Assembly (NCBI RefSeq): GCF_920984735.1
Contig: NZ_CAKLBU010000010.1
Span: forward strand, 1-64,000
Direction of reading: 5' to 3'
Source: Pedobacter sp. Leaf250
GTDB taxonomy: Bacteria; Bacteroidota; Bacteroidia; Sphingobacteriales; Sphingobacteriaceae
Length of the DNA stretch: 64,000 nucleotides
Of this stretch, positions 259-13,538 are shown piece after piece. The stretch's first letter is position 1. Every line of letters starts with the position of its first letter. The position numbers and the translations under genes are program-made. The notes below the pieces were generated by a model. It was not told the origin of the DNA. It searched no databases and saw only the letters and a program-made list of their open reading frames with translations.

Positions 259-1665
259 CTAATTCCAGCCCCCTCCTAAACTCCTGTATAAACCAACCAC
301 TGCATTCAGTTGCTCGGTTTTAATTGCAGTTAACTCCAGTTCGCTTTGCAATAAATTCCCCTGAGCAGTAATCACCTCTAAATAATTTGCCATGCCGCTC
401 TTAAATAATAAACTTGCATTTTTCGAAGCCTGCTGCAAAGTTTGCGCCCTCTTTTCTGCAATGCTGTATTGCGTTTTCAGCTTCTCAACTTTAGTTAACT
501 CATCGGAAACCTCGCCTACAGCATTAATTACCGATTGACGGAATTGAATAACTGTTTTCTCTCTATCAATTTTTGCCAACTCCAAATTAGATTTCAGCTG
601 TCCTCTTTGAAAGATCGGTTGGGTAATTCCACCCGAAACCAAACCAAATAAAGAGGCTGGCATACTGAACCAATTGCTGGCCTTGAACGAATTTACACCG
701 CCACTAGCCGTAATAATCAGAGAAGGATACAAACTGGCTTTCGCCACACCAACTTTAGCATTTGCTACATTTAAAGCCAGTTCTGCAGATTTAATATCTG
801 GCCTGCGGCTGAGCAAAGCGGATGGAAAACCTGCATTCAAATCTTGCGGTATAGCCATTTTATCCAAACGGCTGGTGCGATTGATCGATTGAGGCAATGT
901 ACCGATTAAAACACTTAAAGCATTTTCCTGCAGGGTTACATTTTGCTCCAGTCGAGGAATCAGTTGTGCCGCATTTAGCTGCTGTGCTTCTGCCTGCTGA
1001 ATGGCTAGCGAAGTAACCTGACCGGCATCAAACTGTAAATGGATAATCCTCAATGTACTATCATTAAGCTTTAGGTTTTTCTTAGCAATTTCCAGTTGAG
1101 CATCTAACATCAAAAGATTATAATAACCTTGCGCAACGTTTGCCACCAACCGGGTTTGAACTGCCTTGCGGGCTTCTTCTGTTTGCAAAAAACTGGCTAA
1201 AGCGCCAGCTTTCTGATTGCGTATTTTACCCCAGATATCGGCTTCCCAAAACACACCAAGGTTAGCACTGTAATCTTCAATATGCGTGGAGCCTGTAAAC
1301 TGGTTCAGGCTCAAACCATTTAAACTATTGTCAGAAGGGCGACTAGAACTGGCCGCAACCTGCAACTTCAATTCAGGTAAATAACCCAGTTTCGATTGTT
1401 TAAATAAAACCTCCGCAGCATCAATATTTTTCAATGCAATTTGCATGTCGTAATTTTTAAGCAATGCAGTGTCAATTAAATGCTGAACCGTAAGGTCGTT
1501 GATAAAATTCTTCAAAGGCAAATCGCCTATGCTCGAAGAATCTTTTTGTATGGCATTTCTAAATAATCCTGGCGCAACATTTGGCAAGGATAAATCTTTC
1601 GAAACCGAACATCCGCTCCAGATTAAGGCAAGAAGCAGGATGGCAATAATATTAAACCGTTTCAT
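259..1665 (-). CDS. RND efflux outer-membrane factor (TolC/OprM/NodT-like lipoprotein)
   Basis: This is the outer-membrane channel of a tripartite efflux system that exports substrates from the periplasmic pump-adaptor complex. From the chosen ATG at 1665 the product has 468 residues, begins with a lipoprotein signal (hydrophobic stretch, then WSGC with Cys19 as the lipidation site) and contains two OEP-type repeats with long helical stretches; LLSRRPDI and the GGITQPIF segment near residue 350 are typical of the NodT/CusC family. An upstream in-frame start would add 31 residues before the signal peptide, so it is rejected. The start overlaps the 3' end of the pump gene by 14 nt, which indicates translational coupling. 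Substrate unknown. Confidence 0.93.
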   Translation of the reverse strand: MKRFNIIAILLLALIWSGCSVSKDLSLPNVAPGLFRNAIQKDSSSIGDLPLKNFINDLTVQHLIDTALLKNYDMQIALKNIDAAEVLFKQSKLGYLPELKLQVAASSSRPSDNSLNGLSLNQFTGSTHIEDYSANLGVFWEADIWGKIRNQKAGALASFLQTEEARKAVQTRLVANVAQGYYNLLMLDAQLEIAKKNLKLNDSTLRIIHLQFDAGQVTSLAIQQAEAQQLNAAQLIPRLEQNVTLQENALSVLIGTLPQSINRTSRLDKMAIPQDLNAGFPSALLSRRPDIKSAELALNVANAKVGVAKASLYPSLIITASGGVNSFKASNWFSMPASLFGLVSGGITQPIFQRGQLKSNLELAKIDREKTVIQFRQSVINAVGEVSDELTKVEKLKTQYSIAEKRAQTLQQASKNASLLFKSGMANYLEVITAQGNLLQSELELTAIKTEQLNAVVGLYRSLGGGWN

Positions 1666-4600
1666 ATATTTCTTGATTGATAAGCTTTTCCTCGTGATGA
1701 GAAGAAACCTCATGTGAATTTTTAGAGAACTTTTCTTGTAGTGCCTGGAAGATGACAAACAGTACCGGAATGATAAATAAGCCCAGAATTACTCCAGAAA
1801 CCATTCCTCCTGCAGCACCAATACTAATCGAATGGTTACCTTGAGCCGATGGACCTGTAGCGCCCATCATCGGAATTAAACCTACAATGAAAGCCAGGGA
1901 TGTCATGATAATCGGACGCAACCTCGATTTCGAAGCTTCCAAAGCCGATGAAACCAAAGGTTCACCTGCTCGTCGTCGCTGTACCGCAAACTCCACAATT
2001 AGGATGGCATTTTTAGCTAACAAACCGATAAGCATAATCAGGGCTACCTGAACATAAATATTATTCTGAATTCCTGTTAAACCGATGGCAACGAATACAC
2101 CAAATATTCCCGCAGGGATGGATAAAATAACTGCCAGTGGCAGGATATAACTTTCATATTGTGCCGATAACAGGAAGTAAATGAACACCAAACACAACAG
2201 GAAGATTACAGTAGATTGGCCACCCGAAGAAATTTCTTCACGGGTTTGACCCGAAAATTCATAGCTGTAACCTGCAGGCAATTGTTTTTCTGCCACTTCT
2301 TCAATTGCTTTAATCGCCTGGCCTGAACTAAAGCCGGGTTTAGGAATCGCATTGATGGAAATGGAATTGAACAAATTATATCTGGATGCCGTTTCTGAAC
2401 CATAAATGCGGCTTAACTTCACCAAAGTATTCAATGGAACCATTTCGCCACGGTTGCTTTTTACAAAAACACGGTCGATGGATGACGGGTCTGCCCTATC
2501 CTGCACATCAGCCTGAACAACCACACGGTAATATTTACCAAAACGATTGAAATCTGAAGCCTGTGCACTACCAAAATAAGTCTGCATCGTTTGCAGAATG
2601 TCTTTCACATTCACACCCAATTGGTCAGCTTTTTCATCATTGATATCCAATTGTAACTGCGGATAATCTGCTTTGAAACTGGTAAAGGCCACGGCAATTT
2701 CCGGACGTTTCATCAGCTCGCCGATAAATTGTTGAGAAATACCGCTGAATTTATCCAGCTTACCACCTGTTTTATCCTGCAACACCATATCCAAAGCTTC
2801 CACATTACTAAATCCCGGTACCGTTGGAAAACTAAACACGAAGAAACTACCGCCAGAAATGGCACCTAATTTTCCACGCACCTGATTCATAATTTCCTCA
2901 ATGTTTTTCACGGCACCGCGTTCTTCATTCGGCTTAAGTAAAACAAAAACCACAGCTGAAGATGGACTGGTAGAATTCGTCAATAAGTTGAAACCCGATA
3001 TCGCAGTTACATCTCTCGAGGCATCAAGTTTACTTAATAAAGTTTCAGCTTCGGTCATTACTTTTTGTGTTCCATCCAGCGATGTTCCCGATGGCGTGTT
3101 TACCGCAATGGCGATAAAACCTTGATCTTCCGTTGGGATAAAGCCTGCTGGAGTAGTTTTTACCATGAAAACAGTGGCCAAAGTAATTAATACCAAACCA
3201 GCCATGCTCAACCATTTATGGCGTACCAAAAATTTTAATCCGCCAACATAGCGGTTAGTTAAGGAGTTGAAACTATGGTTAAATCCATTGAAGAAGCGTT
3301 GCTTAAAGTTTGGTTTCTCCTCTGGTTTTCCATGAGAATTGGAATGATTATCTTTTAAAAACAACGCTGCAAGTGCCGGACTCAAAGTCAAAGCATTAAC
3401 CGCTGAAATTACAATCGCAATGGCCATGGTAAAGGCAAACTGACGATAGAAAACCCCTGTCGAGCCCTCCATAAATCCAACGGGTAAAAACACCGCCGCC
3501 ATAACCAGGGTGATGGAAATAATCGCACCGGTAATTTCATGCATCGCCTCGTGGGTAGCTGCTTTCGGACCTAAATGTTTGTGCTCCATCTTGGCATGCA
3601 CCGCCTCAACCACCACAATTGCATCATCCACCACAATACCAATCGCCAGAATTAAAGCAAATAAGGTTAGTAAGTTGATCGAGAATCCAAACAACTGCAT
3701 AAAGAAAAATGTACCCAAAATAGCTACCGGAACGGCAATCGCCGGAATTAATGTCGACCTGAAATCCTGCAGGAACAAGAACACCACGATGAAAACCAGA
3801 ATAAAAGCTTCAACCAATGTATGCTCAACTTGTTCAATCGATTGGTCTAAAGAAACTTTTGTACTGTAGAAAATATTCTTTTTAATGCCCGCCGGGAAAG
3901 TCTTCTCTTGCTTTTCCATTAGCTTATTAATCGCCACCTGGATATCATTCGAATTGGAACCTGCCAACTGAATAATACCAATTACAATGGCTTTCTTACC
4001 GTTGATACGGGTAATACTGTTATAAGAATAGGCACCAAGTTCAATTCTTGCAACATCTTTCAGATGCAAGATTGAACCGTCGGCATTGGAGCGTATAGCA
4101 ATATTTTCATATTCTTCGGGTTTGGTTAGCTTGCCTTTATATTTAATTACATATTCAAAAACTTCTTTGCTTTTCTCTCCGAATTTACCCGGAGCAGCCT
4201 CCAAACTTTTATCCTGAATGGCCCGCATAATTTCGTTTGGCGTAACCTGATAAGTAGCCATCTGCGTAGGGTTTAACCACACACGCATCGAATAATCTTT
4301 TACACCACCAAAAATAGCCGCCGAACCCACGCCCGAAATACGCTTGATTTCAGGAATAATATTGATTTGCGCATAATTGGCTACAAAAGTCTGATCGTAT
4401 TTCGATTCATCATCAGTATACATGCCAATTGCCATGATGAAACTATTTTGTTGTTTCGCCGTGGTTACCCCTTGCTGTACCACTTCTGCCGGCAGCTGAC
4501 TGGTTGCTTGCGCCACACGGTTTTGAACGTTAACCGCAGCCTGGTCGGCATTTGTACCTAATTTGAAGAACACTGTAATGGCTAATGAACCATCATTACT

Positions 4601-4846
4601 GGCAGTAGAACTCATGTAAGTCATGTTTTCTACTCCATTTATCGATTCTTCGAGTGATGGTGCTACCGAACGTAAAACTGTTTCGGCATTCGCTCCGGGA
4701 TAAACAGCCGTTACCAAAACCGATGGCGGCGCAATATCTGGAAACTGTTGCAAAGGCAACTTAGTAAGACCAAGTACACCCAATATCACCAATAAAATGG
4801 AGATTACGGTAGCCAGTACAGGTCTTTGTATAAATATCTTAAACAT
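1652..4846 (-). CDS. RND efflux pump, HAE1 family (AcrB/MexB-like inner-membrane transporter)
   Basis: Proton-driven inner-membrane pump of the tripartite system; 1064 residues, the usual length for HAE1 transporters. It starts MFKIFIQRPVLATVISILLV (TM1), has two large periplasmic loops, the paired acidic residues of the proton relay in TM4 (GIVVDDAIVVVEAV, about residues 400-415) and the matching lysine in TM10 (LLAKNAILIVEFA). A linker with a His/Asn/Lys-rich segment near residue 500 joins the two halves. The adaptor gene lies upstream and the outer-membrane factor downstream with overlap. HAE1 pumps commonly export drugs, dyes or detergents, but the substrate cannot be read from sequence. 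Confidence 0.96.
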   Translation of the reverse strand: MFKIFIQRPVLATVISILLVILGVLGLTKLPLQQFPDIAPPSVLVTAVYPGANAETVLRSVAPSLEESINGVENMTYMSSTASNDGSLAITVFFKLGTNADQAAVNVQNRVAQATSQLPAEVVQQGVTTAKQQNSFIMAIGMYTDDESKYDQTFVANYAQINIIPEIKRISGVGSAAIFGGVKDYSMRVWLNPTQMATYQVTPNEIMRAIQDKSLEAAPGKFGEKSKEVFEYVIKYKGKLTKPEEYENIAIRSNADGSILHLKDVARIELGAYSYNSITRINGKKAIVIGIIQLAGSNSNDIQVAINKLMEKQEKTFPAGIKKNIFYSTKVSLDQSIEQVEHTLVEAFILVFIVVFLFLQDFRSTLIPAIAVPVAILGTFFFMQLFGFSINLLTLFALILAIGIVVDDAIVVVEAVHAKMEHKHLGPKAATHEAMHEITGAIISITLVMAAVFLPVGFMEGSTGVFYRQFAFTMAIAIVISAVNALTLSPALAALFLKDNHSNSHGKPEEKPNFKQRFFNGFNHSFNSLTNRYVGGLKFLVRHKWLSMAGLVLITLATVFMVKTTPAGFIPTEDQGFIAIAVNTPSGTSLDGTQKVMTEAETLLSKLDASRDVTAISGFNLLTNSTSPSSAVVFVLLKPNEERGAVKNIEEIMNQVRGKLGAISGGSFFVFSFPTVPGFSNVEALDMVLQDKTGGKLDKFSGISQQFIGELMKRPEIAVAFTSFKADYPQLQLDINDEKADQLGVNVKDILQTMQTYFGSAQASDFNRFGKYYRVVVQADVQDRADPSSIDRVFVKSNRGEMVPLNTLVKLSRIYGSETASRYNLFNSISINAIPKPGFSSGQAIKAIEEVAEKQLPAGYSYEFSGQTREEISSGGQSTVIFLLCLVFIYFLLSAQYESYILPLAVILSIPAGIFGVFVAIGLTGIQNNIYVQVALIMLIGLLAKNAILIVEFAVQRRRAGEPLVSSALEASKSRLRPIIMTSLAFIVGLIPMMGATGPSAQGNHSISIGAAGGMVSGVILGLFIIPVLFVIFQALQEKFSKNSHEVSSHHEEKLINQEIYETV

Positions 4847-4960
4847 TATTTCTATTAATTTATTTTCTCTTTTTTACTTTAAGCTGTAGTCTTTCAACAT
4901 TTTACGATCTAAGGCACCTGAGAATAGCTTTGTTTTTAGCGTTAACGTTTTCGCTCTAGC

Positions 4961-5112
4961 CTTTGAACTTTCAACCTCGAACTTCCGACTTCGAACCTCC
5001 GACTATTTGAACTTTTGACTTTTAACTTTAGACTTTCAACTTCTAACTTCTAACTTCCGACTTCGGACCTCCGACTATTTGAACTTTTAACTTTTGACTT
5101 TCAACTTTCAAC
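4961..5112. repeat. Degenerate AACTTTTGACTTT tract with a 72-bp imperfect tandem duplication
   Basis: The gap between adaptor and pump genes is filled with variants of a 7-8 base unit (AACTTT, GACTTT, AACTTC, CGACTTC). A longer block starting AACTTCCGACTTCG at 4980 recurs at 5052 with few changes, giving a 72-bp period. It sits inside the efflux operon, so it is transcribed as a spacer of about 270 nt. A shorter tract of the same flavour occurs at about 55895-55930 upstream of mqnC. No protein is encoded. Confidence 0.75.
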
Positions 5113-5119
5113 TCCCTAA

Positions 5120-6316
5120 CTACTTTCTTAAATTCGCTGCTTTATCAGTGGCTTTCTCCGGCGTAATCACTTGTCCTTCCTGTAAACGGTCTAAGCCGCT
5201 TAAAACAATTTGATCGCCTGATTTTACACCATCTTTAACCAGGTAGTTGTTTCCGCTTTTACCTACAACTGTAATGGGCATTTTACTCACCTTGTTGCCT
5301 TTATTCAATGCGAAAACGAAAACTTTATCCTGCATTTCAACAGTTGCCGATTGCGGAATTAAAATCGCATCATCATGTTTTAAACCCAGACGAAGTTTAC
5401 CTGTATTTCCCGAACGTAAGGTTCCGCTGGCATTGGGAAAACTAGCCCTGAGGGTAATGGCACCGGTATTTTTATCGAACTGACCATCAATCATATCAAT
5501 TTTACCTTTAATCGGATAGATGGATTGATCAGCCAAAACCAGTTCAACTGCAGGAAGATGTTTAATTCTATCCGCAGGACTTTTACCTGGATAATTTGCA
5601 TTAAAACTGTTGAAATCATTTTCTGCCAAAGCGAAATACACATGCACCTCGTGGATGTCAGATAATTGCGTTAATGCGATTTGATCAGTCGGCGAAACCA
5701 AACTTCCCTGTTTCTTTGGAATACGACCGATATAACCACTCACTGTTGCTTTAACATTCGTGTAACCTAGATTAATTTGTGCCGATGCAACACTTGCTTT
5801 TGCCTGCTCTGCATTAGCCTGAGCGATTTTGTAAGCAGTTTTTGCAGTCTTCAGTTGAAATTCAGAAACAACCTTGTTTTGAACCAAAGGTGTTAGCTTA
5901 TCAACCTCCAATTGAGCGTTAAGTATTGCGGCTTCGGCAGCATGTAAACTTGCCTTTGCATTATTCAAAGCCTCGCGAAAAGGATTTTCATTGATTTTAA
6001 AGAGTGTTTGTCCTGCTGATACATAAGCACCCTCGTTAACTAAAACACTTTGCAAGTAACCACTTACCTGCGGGCGAACATCAATATCTACAGCACCTTG
6101 GATTGCTGCCGGATATTCTATAAATGTAGTTTCTGTGCTTTCATTAACCAGGCTCACAGGCAAAACCGGTGGCGGTGGCGCAGCAGCAGATTGGTCTGGA
6201 GCTGATTTACAGCTAACCAGTATAACGGATAAAACTGAAACAATTAATACTGTCTTAACCTGGTTAAACCGTTTAACACTGTTAAGTAAAATAAACAAAC
6301 GATGGATGGCATTCAT
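5120..6316 (-). CDS. RND efflux periplasmic adaptor (membrane fusion protein, HlyD/AcrA-like)
   Basis: Connects the pump to the outer-membrane factor. The 398 residues show a lipoprotein signal (hydrophobic stretch ending in LVSC, Cys36), a split biotinyl/lipoyl-like domain (first half near VDIDVRPQVSGYLQSVLVNEG, second near NVKATVSGYIGRIPKKQGSLV), an alpha-helical hairpin of about 80 residues between them, and beta-barrel and membrane-proximal domains. It is the first gene of the operon. A palindrome TTAACACTGTTAA lies inside its first 15 codons (6273-6285), matching the operator core upstream, so repressor binding may extend into the coding region. Confidence 0.94.
   Translation of the reverse strand: MNAIHRLFILLNSVKRFNQVKTVLIVSVLSVILVSCKSAPDQSAAAPPPPVLPVSLVNESTETTFIEYPAAIQGAVDIDVRPQVSGYLQSVLVNEGAYVSAGQTLFKINENPFREALNNAKASLHAAEAAILNAQLEVDKLTPLVQNKVVSEFQLKTAKTAYKIAQANAEQAKASVASAQINLGYTNVKATVSGYIGRIPKKQGSLVSPTDQIALTQLSDIHEVHVYFALAENDFNSFNANYPGKSPADRIKHLPAVELVLADQSIYPIKGKIDMIDGQFDKNTGAITLRASFPNASGTLRSGNTGKLRLGLKHDDAILIPQSATVEMQDKVFVFALNKGNKVSKMPITVVGKSGNNYLVKDGVKSGDQIVLSGLDRLQEGQVITPEKATDKAANLRK
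6273..6285. promoter_or_regulatory. Operator-like palindrome inside the adaptor gene
   Basis: TTAACACTGTTAA is palindromic apart from its centre and matches the TAACANNGTTA core of the shared blocks at 6350-6369 and 7013-7032. It lies about 31-43 nt inside the adaptor coding region. It may be an auxiliary site of the adjacent TetR repressor; no binding data exist here. Confidence 0.45.
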
Positions 6317-6349
6317 ATGATCTAAAATTATAGTGGATTTATAGTGTAT

Positions 6350-6369
6350 AAATAATCTAACAGTGTTAA
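6350..6369. promoter_or_regulatory. Putative TetR operator upstream of the efflux operon
   Basis: On the plus strand, AAATAATCTAACA plus two bases plus GTTAA occurs here, 34-53 nt upstream of the adaptor ATG, and again at 7013-7032 upstream of the TetR gene. Only the two bases in the middle of the TAAC..GTTA dyad differ (GT versus CC). Identical blocks at a repressor gene and its neighbouring efflux operon are the usual sign of a shared autoregulated operator. Confidence 0.65.
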
Positions 6370-6387
6370 ATTATCGGGTAAAAAAAA

Positions 6388-6993
6388 TTAACTGTTAATG
6401 GATAATGTAATGCCTTTAATGGCATCTTTTAAAATTTGTTGGTTTAGTTCGTCTGTTGTTCTGCCGTTAGGGCGCACCAGATTGATGGAAATTAAGCCAT
6501 GAATAATCGACCAGTAGGTGTAATATTTCATGCAGATATCATTTTCAGAAACTGGTTTTTTAGTAAATAACGATTCAATCACATCTCCCAGCATAGCCGA
6601 AACCTGTTCAGCTTCTTGCATGGAGTTTTTAACCGTACAACAAACCATGTCTACACCATACATCAATTGATAAAATTCTTTATGCGAAAAGGCGAAGTTC
6701 CAATACGCAACCCACATGGCCTCCATTTTATTTTCAGCAGATTCATGTTTGTCGCGAGCTTCTCGAATATCTTTACCCAAAATCTGATAACCTCTTCTGG
6801 TTAATTCAAGCAGAATACCCTCTTTGTTGGAGAAATATTCATAAATAATAGGTGCGGTGTATTCAATCTGGTCTGCAATTTTACGCATACTCAAAGCTTG
6901 CCACCCTTCAGTTTGAACAATGTTCAAGGCTGCATCCAGAATACTGGTTCTGGTTTCTTCTTTTAGTCGTAAAATTCTTTCTTTACTTCCCAT
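6388..6993 (-). CDS. TetR/AcrR-family transcriptional repressor
   Basis: One-component regulator, 201 residues from the ATG at 6993 (MGSKERILRLKEET); an upstream GTG start would add 11 unlikely residues running into the operator. The N-terminal helix-turn-helix is visible (ILDAALNIVQTEG, then SMRKIADQIEYTAPIIYEYFSNKEGIL), and the C-terminal part is the variable ligand-binding and dimerisation domain. It lies directly upstream of the RND efflux operon on the same strand but has its own promoter; the two promoters share a conserved 20-bp block, so it very probably represses the pump and itself. The inducer is unknown. Confidence 0.93.
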   Translation of the reverse strand: MGSKERILRLKEETRTSILDAALNIVQTEGWQALSMRKIADQIEYTAPIIYEYFSNKEGILLELTRRGYQILGKDIREARDKHESAENKMEAMWVAYWNFAFSHKEFYQLMYGVDMVCCTVKNSMQEAEQVSAMLGDVIESLFTKKPVSENDICMKYYTYWSIIHGLISINLVRPNGRTTDELNQQILKDAIKGITLSINS

Positions 6994-7012
6994 CACGGAA
7001 TTTATTAAGTGT

Positions 7013-7032
7013 AAATAATCTAACACCGTTAA
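7013..7032. promoter_or_regulatory. Putative autoregulatory TetR operator
   Basis: Second copy of the block AAATAATCTAACA plus two bases plus GTTAA, located 20-39 nt upstream of the TetR ATG. Position and near identity with 6350-6369 support autorepression together with control of the efflux operon. Confidence 0.65.
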
Positions 7033-8406: not shown

Positions 8407-9174
8407 TTACCCCTTAAACTTCTGCATAAAACCACTTACACTTTCCTCGATATTCCCATCCTCAATTGCTTTAACAAAAGCAGTTCCAATGATGGCACCG
8501 TTTGCGTAAGAACAAGCTTTATCAAAAGTTTGTTTATCACTAATCCCAAAACCAATCATTGTTGGGTTTGTAAGATTCATGTTTTTAATCCTGCTGAAAT
8601 AAGTTTCTGTCGTATCACCAACCTCAAGGTTTTTTCCTGTTGTTGCTGATGACGAAAGCAGATATATAAATCCATTAGTTAATCCATCAATTTTATGAAT
8701 ACGTTCATCGGCTGTTTGTGGAGTGATTAAGAACACATTACTTAGGTTGTGTTCCTCAAAGCAACCTTTATAAAATTCTTCATATTCTACCATAGGCAAA
8801 TCAGGAACGATGCAGCCATCTACGCCAACCTCAGCACAGGCTTTACAGAAATTTTCTACACCAAATTGCAAAACAGGGTTCACATAACCCATCAGTAAAA
8901 CTGGAATAGTAACTTTTTTACGCAGGTCTTTCAATTGTTCAAAAAGCAGTTTCAAGGTCATACCTTGATCTAACGATTTCTTGCTGCTCGCCTGAATTAC
9001 AGGACCATCTGCAACAGGATCTGAATATGGGAAACCAATCTCCAGCATATCAGCACCAGATTTTTCTAAAGCTTCTGCAATTTGTATCGTGTCGCCGATA
9101 TTTGGATAACCAGCAGTGTAGTAAATTGATAATATATTTTTCTTCTCTTGGAAGAGTTGTTTGATTCTGTTCAT
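8407..9174 (-). CDS. trpA: Tryptophan synthase alpha subunit
   Basis: Cleaves indole-3-glycerol phosphate to indole and glyceraldehyde 3-phosphate; indole is channelled to TrpB. The 255 residues form one TIM barrel with the family signature LEIGFPYSDPVADGPVIQ near residues 45-62, containing the catalytic Glu (LEIG) and Asp (YSDP), and the phosphate-binding GFGISDKQ segment near residue 213. It is the last gene of the trpD-F-B-A cluster, separated from trpB by 129 nt with a REP-like palindrome. Confidence 0.97.
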   Translation of the reverse strand: MNRIKQLFQEKKNILSIYYTAGYPNIGDTIQIAEALEKSGADMLEIGFPYSDPVADGPVIQASSKKSLDQGMTLKLLFEQLKDLRKKVTIPVLLMGYVNPVLQFGVENFCKACAEVGVDGCIVPDLPMVEYEEFYKGCFEEHNLSNVFLITPQTADERIHKIDGLTNGFIYLLSSSATTGKNLEVGDTTETYFSRIKNMNLTNPTMIGFGISDKQTFDKACSYANGAIIGTAFVKAIEDGNIEESVSGFMQKFKG

Positions 9175-9303: not shown

Positions 9304-10485
9304 TTATAATTTGAAATATTTTATATAAGTATCTAAATCCTTGTCGCCTCTACCAGAAAGGCAAACCACCACATTCTCGCCACCTTCAAATTCCATTTTC
9401 TCCAGATAAGCCAATGCATGTGCACTTTCTATTGCCGGGATAATCCCCTCCAGCTGGGTAAGTAACAAGCCCGCATCCAAACTTTCTTCATCGGTTATAG
9501 AAACATATTGACCACGACCGGATTTAAATAAATGTGCGTGTTGAGGACCTATACCAGGATAATCCAGCCCCGCAGAAACCGAATGCGGTTCTACTACTTG
9601 TCCGTCTTCCGTTTGCATTAAAATACTTCTGCTTCCATGCAAAACGCCTTCTTTACCAAGATAAGTTGTTGCAGCAGAAAATCCGCTTGAAACGCCTTTG
9701 CCAGCAGCTTCGACAGCTATTAGTTTTACGTTTTCATCATCCATAAAATGATAAAACATGCCCATAGCGTTACTTCCGCCACCAACGCAAGCTAAAACAT
9801 AATCAGGCTGGTCGTTACCGGTTTGTTCAATTAATTGCTTTTTAGTCTCTTCGGAAATAATCGATTGAAAAATCGCTACCATATCAGGATAAGGATGCGG
9901 ACCCACCACCGAGCCGATAATATAATGCGTATCAACCGGATTGTTAATCCAGTCACGCATCGCCTCATTAGTGGCATCTTTTAAAGTTTTACTTCCCGAA
10001 CTTGCAGGCACCACCTTTGCACCTAACATTTTCATGCGGGCAACGTTTGGCGCTTGTCGTTCTATATCCACTTCACCCATGTAAATTACGCACTCCAGAT
10101 TACGCAAAGCACAAACGGTAGCTGTTGCAACACCATGCTGCCCTGCCCCCGTTTCGGCGATGATTCTTTTTTTGCCTAACTTTTCAGCAAGTAAAATCTG
10201 CCCGATGGTATTGTTGATCTTATGAGCTCCGGTATGGTTTAAATCTTCCCTTTTAAGGAAAATGTTAGCACCATATCTTTCAGATAATCTTTTAGCCAAA
10301 TACAATGGCGATGGGCGACCAACATAATCTTTTAGTAACTGATGAAATTCTTTCTGAAAATCGGCATCATCAATAATGTTCAAATAGTTTTGACGCAATT
10401 CTTCTACGTTTGGATAAAGCATTTCTGGGATATATGCTCCACCAAAATCTCCGTAATATCCCTTTTCGTTTACTTTGTATTTCAT
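9304..10485 (-). CDS. trpB: Tryptophan synthase beta subunit
   Basis: PLP enzyme that condenses indole with L-serine to L-tryptophan in the alpha2beta2 complex with TrpA. From the ATG at 10485 it has 393 residues. The PLP-lysine motif [13 protein letters not shown] (about residue 88), the [10 protein letters not shown] active-site loop and the glycine-rich phosphate loop [12 protein letters not shown] are all intact. An upstream TTG start would add five residues and is less likely. It is the standard short TrpB1 type. About 184 nt containing palindromes separate it from trpF. Confidence 0.97.
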
Positions 10486-10568
10486 AATATTTTTTATCAA
10501 TCCGTCGGTTGAAACCGATTTTAGTTTTCCATGATTGAAATCATAGTCTTTGTCTCAGTTTTATAAGT

Positions 10569-10669: not shown

Positions 10670-11302
10670 TTACTTTATTGCTATTTTAAACTCTCTAATC
10701 TTTTCCACATCCTTAACTCCAGCCTCAATTTCAAACCTGCTGTTAATATCCAACGCATATAATCTCTTGTCTTCTATCCCAGCTATCGCTGTTGCGTGTT
10801 CCAAATCAATTCCACCGCTTAAAAAGTAAGGCTTATTTAATTTATAACTCTCCAAAATTTTCCAATCAAAAGTCCTTCCTGAGCCTCCATGCGTCTTTGT
10901 TTTGGTATCAAATAAAAAGTAATCAACAACGGCAGCATAATTATTTAGTACCGCAAAGTCAAAGTTCTCATCCACACCAAATGCTTTTATGACTTCAACA
11001 CCGCTAAATGTACTTTTCAATGCTATACAGTATTCCACCGACTCACTTCCATGTAACTGAACAGCTTTTAACTGATATAGATTTACTTTTTTCTTAACAG
11101 TTTCCAAATCCTCATCAACAAAAACGCCAACGGTTTTAACTTCTGATGGGATATATTTAATTAATTCTGCAGAAACATCACTTATAAGTCTTGGCGATTT
11201 CTCGTAAAATATGAAACCCAAATAATCAGGTTGCAAGCTGGCCACTGCAGCAATATTTGCAGCGAATTTCAGTCCGCAAACCTTTAATTTTACACTTCTC
11301 AT
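10670..11302 (-). CDS. trpF: Phosphoribosylanthranilate isomerase
   Basis: Amadori rearrangement of N-(5'-phosphoribosyl)anthranilate to CdRP in tryptophan synthesis. The 210 residues match a single (beta/alpha)8 barrel: LKVCGLKF at the N-terminus (catalytic Cys in KVCG), DYLGFIFYEKSPR, VGVFVDE, KAVQLHG, and FLSGGIDLEH near the C-terminus. Its start codon overlaps the trpD stop by one base (TAATG), so the two are translationally coupled. A trpC gene, usual at this point in Bacteroidota trp operons, is absent. Confidence 0.96.
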   Translation of the reverse strand: MRSVKLKVCGLKFAANIAAVASLQPDYLGFIFYEKSPRLISDVSAELIKYIPSEVKTVGVFVDEDLETVKKKVNLYQLKAVQLHGSESVEYCIALKSTFSGVEVIKAFGVDENFDFAVLNNYAAVVDYFLFDTKTKTHGGSGRTFDWKILESYKLNKPYFLSGGIDLEHATAIAGIEDKRLYALDINSRFEIEAGVKDVEKIREFKIAIK

Positions 11303-12288
11303 TATGCAACTAACTTTTTAAAGCTTTCTAAAGCTTTTTTGTTTGTCAATGATTCTTCAGCCTCATAGAAACAGTCTGCAAAACTTGCCATTGGTTTTAT
11401 GGTTTTAATCGCCAATGCAGAATTGCAAAGCACTACATTATTTTGAACATCAGTAGCATCTCCATTTAAAACATCCATAAATATTTTGGCAGAGGATTCT
11501 ACCGTATCGCCGCCCTTAATATCATTGATGGAAACCTTTTCAAAACCCATATCAGTTAGAGTTAAAATACTTTCACCTTTATTATTGAAAGTTTTCACAT
11601 CACAGGTAAGAGAGATTTCATCGTAACCCTCAAGAGCATGCACAATAGTGTAATTTTTGGTCGTATCCTGATATAAATAATTGTATAAACGAGCCAATTC
11701 AAGACTGAAAACGCCAACCATTTGATATTTCGGTTGGGATGGATTAACCATTGGCCCCAACATATTGAAGAATGTTTTAATGCCCAAATCCTTGCGTATT
11801 GGTGCTACAATTTTCATTGCAGGATTAAATAATGGTGCATGTAAAAAGCAAATTCCGGCATTATCAAGATTTCTTTTCAAAACATCCTGATCGTTAGTAA
11901 AATTATAACCCAGATATTCCATCACATTAGATGATCCGCAACCTGAAGAAACACCATAATTACCATGTTTGGCCACTTTATGTCCTGCACCTGCCACTAC
12001 GAATGAAGATAGTGTAGAGATATTAAATGTATCTTTTCCATCTCCGCCTGTCCCGCAAAGGTCGATTAATTCGAAGTCAGAAAAGTCTGCTTTAATCCCT
12101 AAATCTAACATCGCATCGCGGAAACCCTGCAACTCATCAACTGTGATGTTGCGCATGGCATAAGCCGTTATAAATGCAGCAATTTGCGATGAATTGAATT
12201 CGCCCTGCGTAATAGAAATGAGGATATTTTTTGCCTCTTCCCTGCTAAAACTTTTATTTTCAAATAAATGGTTTAATATCTTTTTCAT
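11302..12288 (-). CDS. trpD: Anthranilate phosphoribosyltransferase
   Basis: Transfers phosphoribose from PRPP to anthranilate. The 328-residue protein has the PRPP-binding signature DLCGTGGDGKDTFNIST (about residues 78-94), KHGNYGVSSGCGSSNVMEYLG with a serine/cysteine-rich variant of the usual KHGNRS loop, and the NMLGPMVNP segment. It is the first structural gene of the cluster. It is preceded by a 120-nt leader with a 65-nt imperfect hairpin (12301-12365) and, further up, by the trp leader peptide and attenuator, which therefore control D, F, B and A together. Confidence 0.96.
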   Translation of the reverse strand: MKKILNHLFENKSFSREEAKNILISITQGEFNSSQIAAFITAYAMRNITVDELQGFRDAMLDLGIKADFSDFELIDLCGTGGDGKDTFNISTLSSFVVAGAGHKVAKHGNYGVSSGCGSSNVMEYLGYNFTNDQDVLKRNLDNAGICFLHAPLFNPAMKIVAPIRKDLGIKTFFNMLGPMVNPSQPKYQMVGVFSLELARLYNYLYQDTTKNYTIVHALEGYDEISLTCDVKTFNNKGESILTLTDMGFEKVSINDIKGGDTVESSAKIFMDVLNGDATDVQNNVVLCNSALAIKTIKPMASFADCFYEAEESLTNKKALESFKKLVA

Positions 12289-12300
12289 TTTCCTTTTGTT

Positions 12301-12365
12301 TTAACCACAGATTCAAACAGATTTGTCTTCAATTTTATCTGTTCATCCTTCCCATCTGTGGTTAA
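12301..12365. repeat. Long imperfect inverted repeat between attenuator and trpD
   Basis: TTAACCACAGAT at 12301-12312 is mirrored by ATCTGTGGTTAA at 12354-12365, with an inner ACAGAT/ATCTGT pair. It would form a hairpin in the trpD 5' UTR just upstream of the start codon. The ACCACAGAT sequence resembles a widely dispersed bacterial repeat, so it may be a repeat insertion and not a regulatory structure. Confidence 0.65.
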
Positions 12366-12408
12366 TTATTTGCTAATGCTAATAAGGGGTTGTTTAAAAA
12401 TGTGCAAT

Positions 12409-12441
12409 AAAAAAAAGGATTGCTTTTTGGGCAATCCTTTT
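12409..12441 (-). terminator. trp attenuator: intrinsic terminator
   Basis: On the minus strand AAAAGGATTGC pairs with GCAATCCTTTT (11 bp, 7-nt loop) and is followed by a run of U (eight A on the plus strand at 12409-12416). It ends no gene on this strand: the next upstream gene points the other way. It lies 45 nt after the stop of a Trp-rich leader ORF and about 120 nt before trpD, the position expected for an attenuator. Confidence 0.85.
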
Positions 12442-12477
12442 CATCGTTTATAAAATATTTTAAAATATATAACAACA

Positions 12478-12486
12478 GAATTTGCC
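12478..12486 (-). promoter_or_regulatory. Candidate antiterminator arm at the trpL stop codon
   Basis: GGCAAATTC (minus strand), beginning with the last base of the leader-peptide stop codon, can pair with GGATTGCC of the terminator 5' arm (12430-12437) through eight pairs with one bulged A and one G-U. This pairing excludes the terminator. A ribosome at the stop codon would cover the arm; a ribosome stalled at the Trp codons (12504-12512) would leave it free. Confidence 0.65.
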
Positions 12487-12539
12487 TAACGAATTTCGTT
12501 ATGCCACCACCAATTGTTATTTAAGTTTTTAATTATCAT
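12486..12539 (-). CDS. trpL: trp operon leader peptide (three consecutive Trp codons)
   Basis: A 17-codon ORF on the minus strand encodes MIIKNLNNNWWWHNEIR, ending TAG. The three TGG codons at 12504-12512 are a very unlikely chance event in an AT-rich leader immediately upstream of trp genes. The ORF is followed by an antiterminator arm and a terminator hairpin with a U-tract. The product is a sensor and not a functional protein: scarcity of charged tRNA-Trp stalls the ribosome and should permit readthrough into trpD. A weak TAACG/CGTTA hairpin overlaps codons 14-18. A Bacteroidota trp-leader RNA motif has been described by comparative genomics; I cannot test whether this is a member. Confidence 0.87.
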   Translation of the reverse strand: MIIKNLNNNWWWHNEIR

Positions 12540-12551
12540 GTTTGTACAGAA

Positions 12552-12584
12552 CAAATATTGATATACTTTTTTATAATTCCAAAA
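12552..12584 (-). promoter_or_regulatory. Candidate trp operon promoter
   Basis: On the minus strand TTTTGG (12579-12584) and AATATTTG (12552-12559) are spaced like the TTTG / TAnnTTTG elements of the Bacteroidota primary sigma factor, with one mismatch in the -7 box. Transcription would start a few bases upstream of the leader-peptide ATG (12539), leaving a very short 5' UTR. Confidence 0.45.
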
Positions 12585-12599
12585 TCTTTCTAATAATTT

Positions 12600-13538
12600 A
12601 TGGCTTTTTTTAAGAGAAAAGTACAGTTTAACGATGATTTAGGTTTCAGTTCCGCTCCGGTGCTCAAAAATCAGCGGGTTTTAAATACCGACGGAACACC
12701 AAACATAGAACGAACCGGCTTGCCATGGTTTAAGTTTGATGATACTTATACCCGATTGGTGACCATGAGTTGGCCAAGGTTTTTTCTTGTTATCCTGATT
12801 ACTTACCTTATTGTAAATACGCTGTTTGCCGTAGCTTATAATGTGATTGGAATTGAAAATTTAGATGGCGCCAAAGGCACAACACTTAGAGATCAGTTTT
12901 TTGATGCTTTCTTTTTTTCTGCTCAAACCATTTCTACCGTAGGTTATGGACACATTTCGCCACAAGGTTTCATTACCAGTATTCTGGCCGCTTTCGAAAG
13001 TATGTTGGGTTTGTTAGCATTTGCATTGGCGACCGGATTACTTTATGGACGTTTTAGCCGCCCAACATCTAAAGTTACTTTCAGTAAAAAAATGGTTATT
13101 GCGCCTTATCAAGGTCGCACAGGCTTAATGTGCCGTCTGGCAAATTTGAGGAAAAACTCATTAATAGATGTAGAAGCGCAAATGTTCATGACATTTAACG
13201 AAACTGTTGATGGCAAACTCAAACGAAGTTTTTATCCTTTAGAATTGGAACGCAGTAAGATCAGTTTTCTTTCTTTAAATTGGACATTAGTGCATCCGAT
13301 TAATGAGGACAGTCCTATTTTTGAGAAAACTTTAGGCGAACTAAAAGTTGCTGAGGTGGAGATTTTCGTTATTTTAAGGGCGTTTGATGATACTTTCGCA
13401 CAAACCATTCATACCAGAACGAGTTACCAAGATGAAGACATAGAATGGAATGCTAAATTTAAAATCATGCATTACCATAATGAAGCCGGCAAAACCGTTA
13501 TGGATTTTAGCCTTTTCGACCATACAGAAAAACAGTGA
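12600..13538 (+). CDS. Inward-rectifier potassium channel (KirBac-like)
   Basis: Predicted tetrameric K+ channel subunit of 312 residues. After a cytoplasmic N-terminus there is TM1 (FFLVILITYLIVNTLFAVAY, about residues 60-80), a pore helix and the selectivity filter STVGYGHISP near residue 117, TM2 (about 125-150, SMLGLLAFALATGLLYGRFS), and a C-terminal immunoglobulin-like cytoplasmic domain of about 155 residues (KMVIAPYQGRTGLMCRLANLR is characteristic of Kir). It is divergent from the trp leader, with both promoters sharing about 60 nt. Confidence 0.93.
   Translation: MAFFKRKVQFNDDLGFSSAPVLKNQRVLNTDGTPNIERTGLPWFKFDDTYTRLVTMSWPRFFLVILITYLIVNTLFAVAYNVIGIENLDGAKGTTLRDQFFDAFFFSAQTISTVGYGHISPQGFITSILAAFESMLGLLAFALATGLLYGRFSRPTSKVTFSKKMVIAPYQGRTGLMCRLANLRKNSLIDVEAQMFMTFNETVDGKLKRSFYPLELERSKISFLSLNWTLVHPINEDSPIFEKTLGELKVAEVEIFVILRAFDDTFAQTIHTRTSYQDEDIEWNAKFKIMHYHNEAGKTVMDFSLFDHTEKQ

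Follow-up and report, generated by a model that had tools for sequence, protein, structure and literature searches.

How is tryptophan synthesis regulated in Pedobacter, a genus of soil-type bacteria in the less studied phylum Bacteroidota? The question is raised by a short leader on the minus strand of a 64,000 nt stretch of the genome of Pedobacter sp. Leaf250 (the whole stretch is called the window below), upstream of a group of tryptophan genes. In a preliminary description, made from the letters of the DNA, the leader was read as a ribosome-mediated tryptophan attenuator, and we find this reading very probably right for the operon trpDFBA. It is supported by conserved Trp codons, by a terminator and an antiterminator that recur in Pedobacter and in the sampled other genera, and by folding of the leader in three states of translation.

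The leader in the window and the genes around it

The leader ORF, MIIKNLNNNWWWHNEIR, has 17 codons; it begins with an ATG at 12539 and ends with a TAG at 12488-12486 (12486-12539 with the stop codon, minus strand), and its codons 10-12 are three consecutive Trp codons, TGG TGG TGG, at 12512-12504. Behind it lies an intrinsic terminator with a U-tract (12409-12442), written AAAAGGATTGC-CCAAAAA-GCAATCCTTTT at 12441-12413 of the minus strand, a perfect stem of 11 bp followed by T's to 12409. The arm GGCAAATTC at 12486-12478 overlaps the leader stop codon, and with one more base (12486-12477, from here on arm 2, the putative upstream strand of an antiterminator) it can form nine pairs and one bulge with 12438-12430, a segment made up of the terminator's 5' arm and the base that opens its loop. 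The ORF with its three TGG codons, the 11-bp terminator and the pairing arm at the stop codon had all been described beforehand, and every coordinate given for them was right. Directly 3' of the Trp codons is a small hairpin, UAACGA-AAU-UCGUUA (12487-12501), seen in the sequence and in the rows of a second group of leaders, and immediately 5' of them is arm 1, AUAACAAU (12513-12520), which comes from the predicted fold only; in the ribosome-free leader it would pair with 12469-12476 and enclose arm 2, in a fold that 28 of 200 shuffles equal.

The combination is rare. Only one short ORF (8-40 codons) with TGGTGGTGG is found on both strands of the 64 kb, and it has a terminator behind it, while 100 dinucleotide shuffles of the window gave in sum two such ORFs and none with a terminator. 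The duplex of arm and terminator is in the window sequence alone unremarkable, as 8 of 200 shuffles equal it, and its support comes from the conserved position and the covariation instead.

Read along the minus strand the order is TTTG, 20 nt, AATATTTG, 12 nt, the leader ATG, the ORF, an A+U-rich spacer, the terminator and its T's. The TTTG (12580-12583) is like the -33 element and AATATTTG (12552-12559) like the -7 box of a predicted Bacteroidota promoter, with the first T of the consensus TAnnTTTG unmatched. Of 80 trpD leaders, 78 have the box as NAnnTTTG at a distance of 5-13 nt from the ATG and none has the full TAnnTTTG; the two leaders in which no -7 box is recognisable are L104 and L107. 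Leaders of trpE, which are treated below, have TAnnTTTG 6-7 nt before the ATG in 53 of 53 cases, and a TTTG 16-24 nt before the box is present in 72 of the 80 trpD and 29 of the 53 trpE leaders. Since the -7 box spans -12 to -5 (PMC9723704), the position of the box predicts a transcription start near 12547 in the window, and the 5' UTRs would be about 1-9 nt in trpD leaders and 2-3 nt in trpE leaders, which means that the mRNAs of both types are probably nearly leaderless. Leaderless mRNAs make up 5.5% in Flavobacterium psychrophilum (PMC9723704). Of the 5' UTRs of Bacteroides thetaiotaomicron no more than about 3.7% are reported to be shorter than 10 nt (PMC7366714), so that a nearly leaderless start would be unusual. 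If true, it would tie the loading of the ribosome closely to transcription.

The operon behind the leader consists of trpD (11302-12288; TIGR01245, 294 bits), trpF (10670-11302; NF002295, 172 bits, under its cut-off of 216), trpB (9304-10500; TIGR00263, 587 bits) and trpA (8407-9174; TIGR00262, 232 bits), all on the minus strand. The genes trpE, trpG and trpC lie together on another contig of the same genome, and the tryptophan pathway is thus divided into an EGC and a DFBA part; that trp genes can be spread over two operons is known from elsewhere, with EGDC and FBA as the parts (PMC2395257). The nearest named relatives of the trpD are from Pedobacter, those of P. frigidisoli and P. rhodius being 97% identical to it. 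For comparison we used the best 80 of 388 confirmed relatives (78 Pedobacter, one Sphingobacteriales bacterium and one Flavobacteriaceae bacterium), and among these best 80 loci trpF, trpB and trpA are on the strand of trpD in 79, and trpC and trpE are in none within the available flanks.

On the other side of the leader a divergent gene starts at 12600, a putative ion-channel gene by a weak match only, which scores 21 bits where the cut-off is 300. It begins 61 nt from the leader ATG (12539-12600), and its promoter therefore probably overlaps the trp leader or the trp promoter; a putative ion-channel gene is divergent and less than 300 nt from the leader in 47 of 79 loci. Beyond trpA, at 1652-7026 and on the same strand, there are ORFs that by eye read like an RND efflux pump with its membrane-fusion partner, and a TetR-like regulator. 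A multidrug operon is regulated by a trp leader peptide in Sinorhizobium (PMC7298713).

Between the terminator and trpD is a spacer (12289-12411, minus strand) that contains an inverted repeat, TTAACCACAGAT...ATCTGTGGTTAA, at 12298-12366. We considered that it might belong to a repeat family, but a search of the genome at E 0.001 gave its own copy only. Different repeat-like inserts are seen at this place in several species. One might take the repeat in the spacer, and the absence of any sign of activity in the genome, to mean that the leader is a conserved relic, whose anatomy has been inherited while the regulation was lost in this strain, but the Trp codons, the terminator, the arm and the promoter-like elements are all kept without visible damage, and we hold a relic to be extremely improbable.

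The length of the spacer differs between two groups of Pedobacter leaders, which are set by sequence (L036-L080, the group of the window, and L081-L115). In the 44 loci of the window's group it ranges from 24 to 397 nt, with a median of 118 nt, and in the 35 loci of the second group from 5 to 89 nt, where the terminator stem is only 5-16 nt from the trpD ATG in 17 of the 35. This matters for another explanation, in which the leader would be a small gene in its own right. Its terminated RNA or its peptide would act in trans, the terminator would do no more than end it, and trpD would be transcribed from another promoter after the terminator. The long spacer in the window's group could hold such a promoter, and a trans-acting trp leader peptide, peTrpL, has been reported in Sinorhizobium (PMC7298713). 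The 5-16 nt in those 17 loci of the second group are however too little for a promoter, and the antiterminator arm covaries with the terminator, as is described below, which a stand-alone gene would not need. We regard this explanation as very unlikely, and return to attenuation in cis.

Conservation and folding of the trpD leaders

An ATG ORF with WWW precedes trpD in 79 of the 80 named loci (the best 80 of 388), and the sole locus in which it is not seen, L040, has only 204 nt of upstream sequence. The 79 loci and the window give a set of 80 leaders, of which 66 are distinct up to the terminator. All three TGG codons are invariant in these 66, and many other codons vary; homologous leaders in which the Trp codons are not conserved, which the preliminary description had considered fatal to its own proposal, were thus not met with among them. 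It had also suggested a covariance search of the leader in Sphingobacteriaceae; in the alignment of the Pedobacter leaders the terminator and the antiterminator both covary, and the search of the family gave matches in 18 of 25 genera.

In the alignment of the 66 distinct leaders the terminator has 90.5% of its cells paired, against 69.0% in the best version with one strand slid, and 39 cells with both sides changed, against at most 8 in slid versions. In the antiterminator, the helix of arm 2 and the terminator's 5' arm, 84.3% of the cells are paired against 61.6%, and 36 cells have both sides changed against at most 32. Its compensatory changes are from UA to CG in 28 of the 66 rows and from CG to UA in 7, and two of its pairs also change in step with the 3' arm of the terminator, so that three strands vary together. 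Counted as pairs, the double changes are three in the antiterminator, a number that 52 of 500 column shuffles attain, and two in the terminator, which 338 of 500 attain, with a control that overstates the support where sequences are related. Two slid versions of the antiterminator have four double-change pairs, but these comprise 28 and 13 cells against the 36 of the real one. Its two basal pairs are broken in about half of the rows, because the foot of the helix shifts register between the two leader groups.

The small hairpin was tried as a single conserved helix across the 66 leaders, and it is unsupported as such, since its register differs between the groups. In the second group (28 of 32 rows, with L104, L107, L114 and L115 excluded) all of its 196 cells are paired, with one double-change pair, which 461 of 500 shuffles reach. 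Two of the excluded leaders, L104 of P. cryoconitis and L107 of P. antarcticus, have a longer peptide end, MKLTNGLKQWWWHNATSVV.

The effect of a ribosome was computed by folding the leader with a footprint that extends 14 nt upstream and 15 nt downstream from the first base of the codon in the P site, and the pairing of the antiterminator was taken before the 3' arm of the terminator emerges. Over the 66 distinct trpD leaders the mean antiterminator pairing is 0.11 with no ribosome, 0.85 with the A site on any of the Trp codons and 0.01 with the A site on the stop codon; the stalled state exceeds the stop state in 66 of 66 and the free state in 64 of 66. For the window leader the values are 0.97 stalled, 0.16 at the stop and 0.19 free, and none of 100 shuffles of the region 3' of the Trp codons match the real difference; over the six trpD leaders shuffled in this way the numbers are 0, 0, 1, 0, 0 and 2 of 100. 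When the ribosome is walked along the window leader arm 2 is open at codons 4-14, half open at codon 15 and closed at codons 16-18. The classical logic that had been proposed, in which a stall at Trp frees the arm and a ribosome at the stop codon covers it, is what this model predicts, with the refinement that the leader without a ribosome would hide the arm as well, since arm 2 is then enclosed by a helix that AUAACAAU closes.

When the full window leader is folded to equilibrium, the terminator prevails in all ribosome states (with a stall at the third Trp codon, 0.96 for the terminator and 0.00 for the antiterminator), and antitermination must therefore come about by kinetic pre-emption. 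Kinetic switching is usual for attenuators. The well-known trp attenuator trpL of Escherichia coli has adjacent Trp codons, alternative pairings and a terminator with a U-tract, and the Pedobacter leader has these as well. It differs from trpL in having three adjacent Trp codons and probably a nearly leaderless start, and in that two unlinked operons each have an attenuator.

We propose the following sequence of events. RNA polymerase would start about 8 nt 5' of the leader ATG and a ribosome would load at once. When tryptophanyl-tRNA is scarce, the ribosome should stall at the UGG codons 10-12, where it would cover arm 1 together with the base of the small hairpin. Arm 2 would then be available for pairing with the terminator's 5' arm as this emerges, and transcription would continue into trpD. 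When tryptophan is ample the ribosome would reach the stop codon and sit on top of arm 2, and the terminator could form; without translation the leader would fold on itself with arm 2 hidden, and transcription would be expected to terminate then too. What characterises a trp attenuator is a short ORF in the leader of trp genes in which Trp codons are adjacent, a terminator with a mutually exclusive antiterminator, and a ribosome whose position selects the structure. The ORF precedes trp genes here and both structures are conserved, and the selection by the ribosome is what the computed folding predicts. Trp attenuation in Sphingobacteriaceae is now on comparative evidence.

A second leader upstream of trpE

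The picture of one attenuator holds for the trpDFBA operon, but this is half of a split pathway, and the other half has a putative attenuator of its own. In the genome of the window the trpE leader, with an ORF that starts at position 5113 of the region L035, reads MINNIHTWLWQSNSTQNCAGCV, with the Trp codons arranged as W-x-W, and it is followed by a G+C-rich terminator, to the 5' arm of which the leader has a pairing arm, GCGCCGGCT. A trpE match is present in 59 of 60 genomes of the genus, and 58 upstream regions were read, one partial match (G042) being left out. All 58 of these Pedobacter regions have a W-x-W leader, 57 of them visible directly and the one of G040 starting with GTG. For alignment, 53 of the 58 passed a strict pattern, five of these had no terminator by our rule, and the remaining 48 gave 41 distinct rows.

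In these 41 rows 95.9% of the terminator cells are paired, against at most 53.4% in slid versions, and 77.0% of the antiterminator cells against at most 40.8%; four antiterminator pairs have both sides changed, which 11 of 500 shuffles reach. A hairpin 3' of the Trp codons is 94.1% paired (slid versions at most 60.0%), and it has two double-change pairs, against four in one slid version. Footprint folding gives a mean antiterminator pairing of 0.14 in the free leader, 0.89 with the ribosome at the second Trp codon and 0.30 at the stop, and the stalled state exceeds the stop state in 38 of the 41. The test is weaker than for trpD: in six chosen leaders the real difference was equalled by 1, 2, 10, 31, 13 and 18 shuffles out of 100. 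The reading frame at the end of the trpE leader varies among species and the arm is constant, which fits selection on the pairing rather than on the peptide.

A single target of arm 2 could not be assigned to the trpE leaders of Pedobacter, where the preference is divided between the 5' arm of the terminator (24) and its loop with the 3' arm (10) in 42 leaders with a terminator, of 46 distinct ones. In other genera the corresponding numbers are 15 and 1, for 17 leaders from 18 loci.

Between the leader ORF and the terminator there is a nearly invariant box without G, UUUAUCAACCUAAACC, at about 5191-5206 of L035, in the 41 aligned Pedobacter trpE leaders (L154 deviates). It is recognisable in several other genera as AUCAACCAAAACC, and was not seen in the alignment of trpD leaders. 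Such a box would suit the site of a factor, and it could be argued that attenuation is brought about in trans by a Trp-binding protein or a tRNA-sensing RNA, with the leader ORF being incidental. Nothing else speaks for this, and nothing directly. Against it are the invariant Trp codons, the placing of the pairing arm just where a ribosome at the stop codon would cover it, and the searches with Rfam, in which no family reached its gathering score in the whole window or in the trpE leader region L035. This makes a trans-acting factor with an incidental ORF very improbable to us, and ribosome-mediated attenuation is still the reading that we prefer.

With a second attenuator of the same plan on trpEGC, both halves of the pathway should respond to charged tRNA-Trp. 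They would be a natural pair that reads the same tRNA in one cell, and to find attenuators on both halves of a split pathway was unexpected. It is possible, and we put this forward as a tentative idea, that the split pathway of Sphingobacteriaceae is controlled by a pair of ribosome attenuators, both nearly leaderless and acting in parallel but unlike in RNA design, one for trpDFBA and one for trpEGC, that the trpE type is an undescribed RNA family, and that its nearly invariant box sets the timing of polymerase and ribosome or binds a factor, so that the two halves differ in set point for the same tRNA signal.

Relatives of the two leaders

A trp-leader motif from Bacteroidota was brought up in the preliminary description, and it is found in Rfam as RF01692, Bacteroid-trp, a cis-regulatory candidate (Weinberg et al. 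2010, PMC2864571). The model aligns over its whole length to the window leader with 40.4 bits (E 0.01 in 2 kb), which is below its gathering score of 49. In 60 genomes of the genus it gives 34 matches at E 0.1, none of them over gathering, and one of the loci, L031, was set aside as it has no WWW leader; Rfam at its cut-off thus misses Pedobacter in 60 of 60 genomes. Three matches in the genome of the window (L002-L004, E 1.8-6.6) have no WWW leader either and look like chance, and RF01692 is not among the 11 Rfam matches at E up to 1 in L035 5000-5350. A search of 247 genomes of the phylum gave 26 with a match at E 0.001, of which 24 pass gathering; 25 are in one family, one is in another, and none is in Sphingobacteriaceae.

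The 26 loci precede trpE (25) or trpB (1), and they are like the Pedobacter trpD leader in having WWW near codon 10, a terminator and trp genes downstream, but the Pedobacter leader stands before trpD. We built two models, R2 from Pedobacter trpD leaders and R1 from trpE leaders, and R2 matches the leader in all 26 RF01692 loci fetched (E 3e-9 to 0.061). The search thus finds homology in both directions, the two weakest R2 matches (0.024 and 0.061) being unconvincing alone. By duplex energies the best partner of arm 2 is the terminator loop with the 3' arm in 24 of the 26 RF01692 loci, and the 5' arm of the terminator in all 66 distinct Pedobacter trpD leaders and in 15 of 17 from other genera (in L242, one of the two others, the terminator was probably misplaced by the finder). 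The antiterminator pairing is by this measure not the same, and Rfam may not define the family in that way. On sequence grounds we conclude that the trpD leader is related to Bacteroid-trp but divergent from it, with a score under gathering, and that it is of a kind already known.

Bacteroid-trp RNA is said to be conserved before the trp operon of F. psychrophilum (PMC6414381), for which there are also clues for leader-peptide attenuation before amino-acid operons (PMC9723704), and in both respects this bacterium is like Pedobacter. The parts of the two accounts available to us make no mention of trpD leaders, of a second trp leader or of Sphingobacteriaceae, and we found no description of Pedobacter trp leaders, or of two trp leaders in Bacteroidota, in the open-licence literature. 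There are precedents by description in Actinobacteria, in another phylum and with another make-up of the operons. In Corynebacterium diphtheriae each of the two trp operons, trpB1EDGC and trpB2A, is preceded by an attenuator, and there are leader peptides in which UGG is doubled or tripled (PMC1262725), and in Streptomyces lividans leader peptides for other amino acids are transcribed leaderless (PMC8079986).

Within the family and at E 0.01, R2 has matches in 123 of 151 genomes, which belong to 18 of 25 genera, with the caution that weak R2 matches may be trpE leaders or plain terminators, and R1 matches 69 of 151 genomes and 12 of 25 genera; both match in 65 of the 151. One R2 locus from each of 17 other genera was read, and all 17 are before trpD, with WWW in 13 and two Trp in 4. 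The 14 R1 loci from 11 other genera are all before trpE, with WWW in 8, WW in 5 and two separated Trp in one. Among 198 genomes of the class, at E 1e-4, R2 matches seven, six of which are Sphingobacteriaceae, and R1 three, all Pedobacter. We fetched 12 secondary R2 matches as candidates for attenuators of other pathways, and rejected them as such: seven are plain terminator-like without a WW leader, and five (L287, L290, L292, L293 and L295) have a WWW leader and a next ORF that by eye reads like trpE. That R2 also finds some trpE leaders suggests that the trpD and trpE leader types may share an origin.
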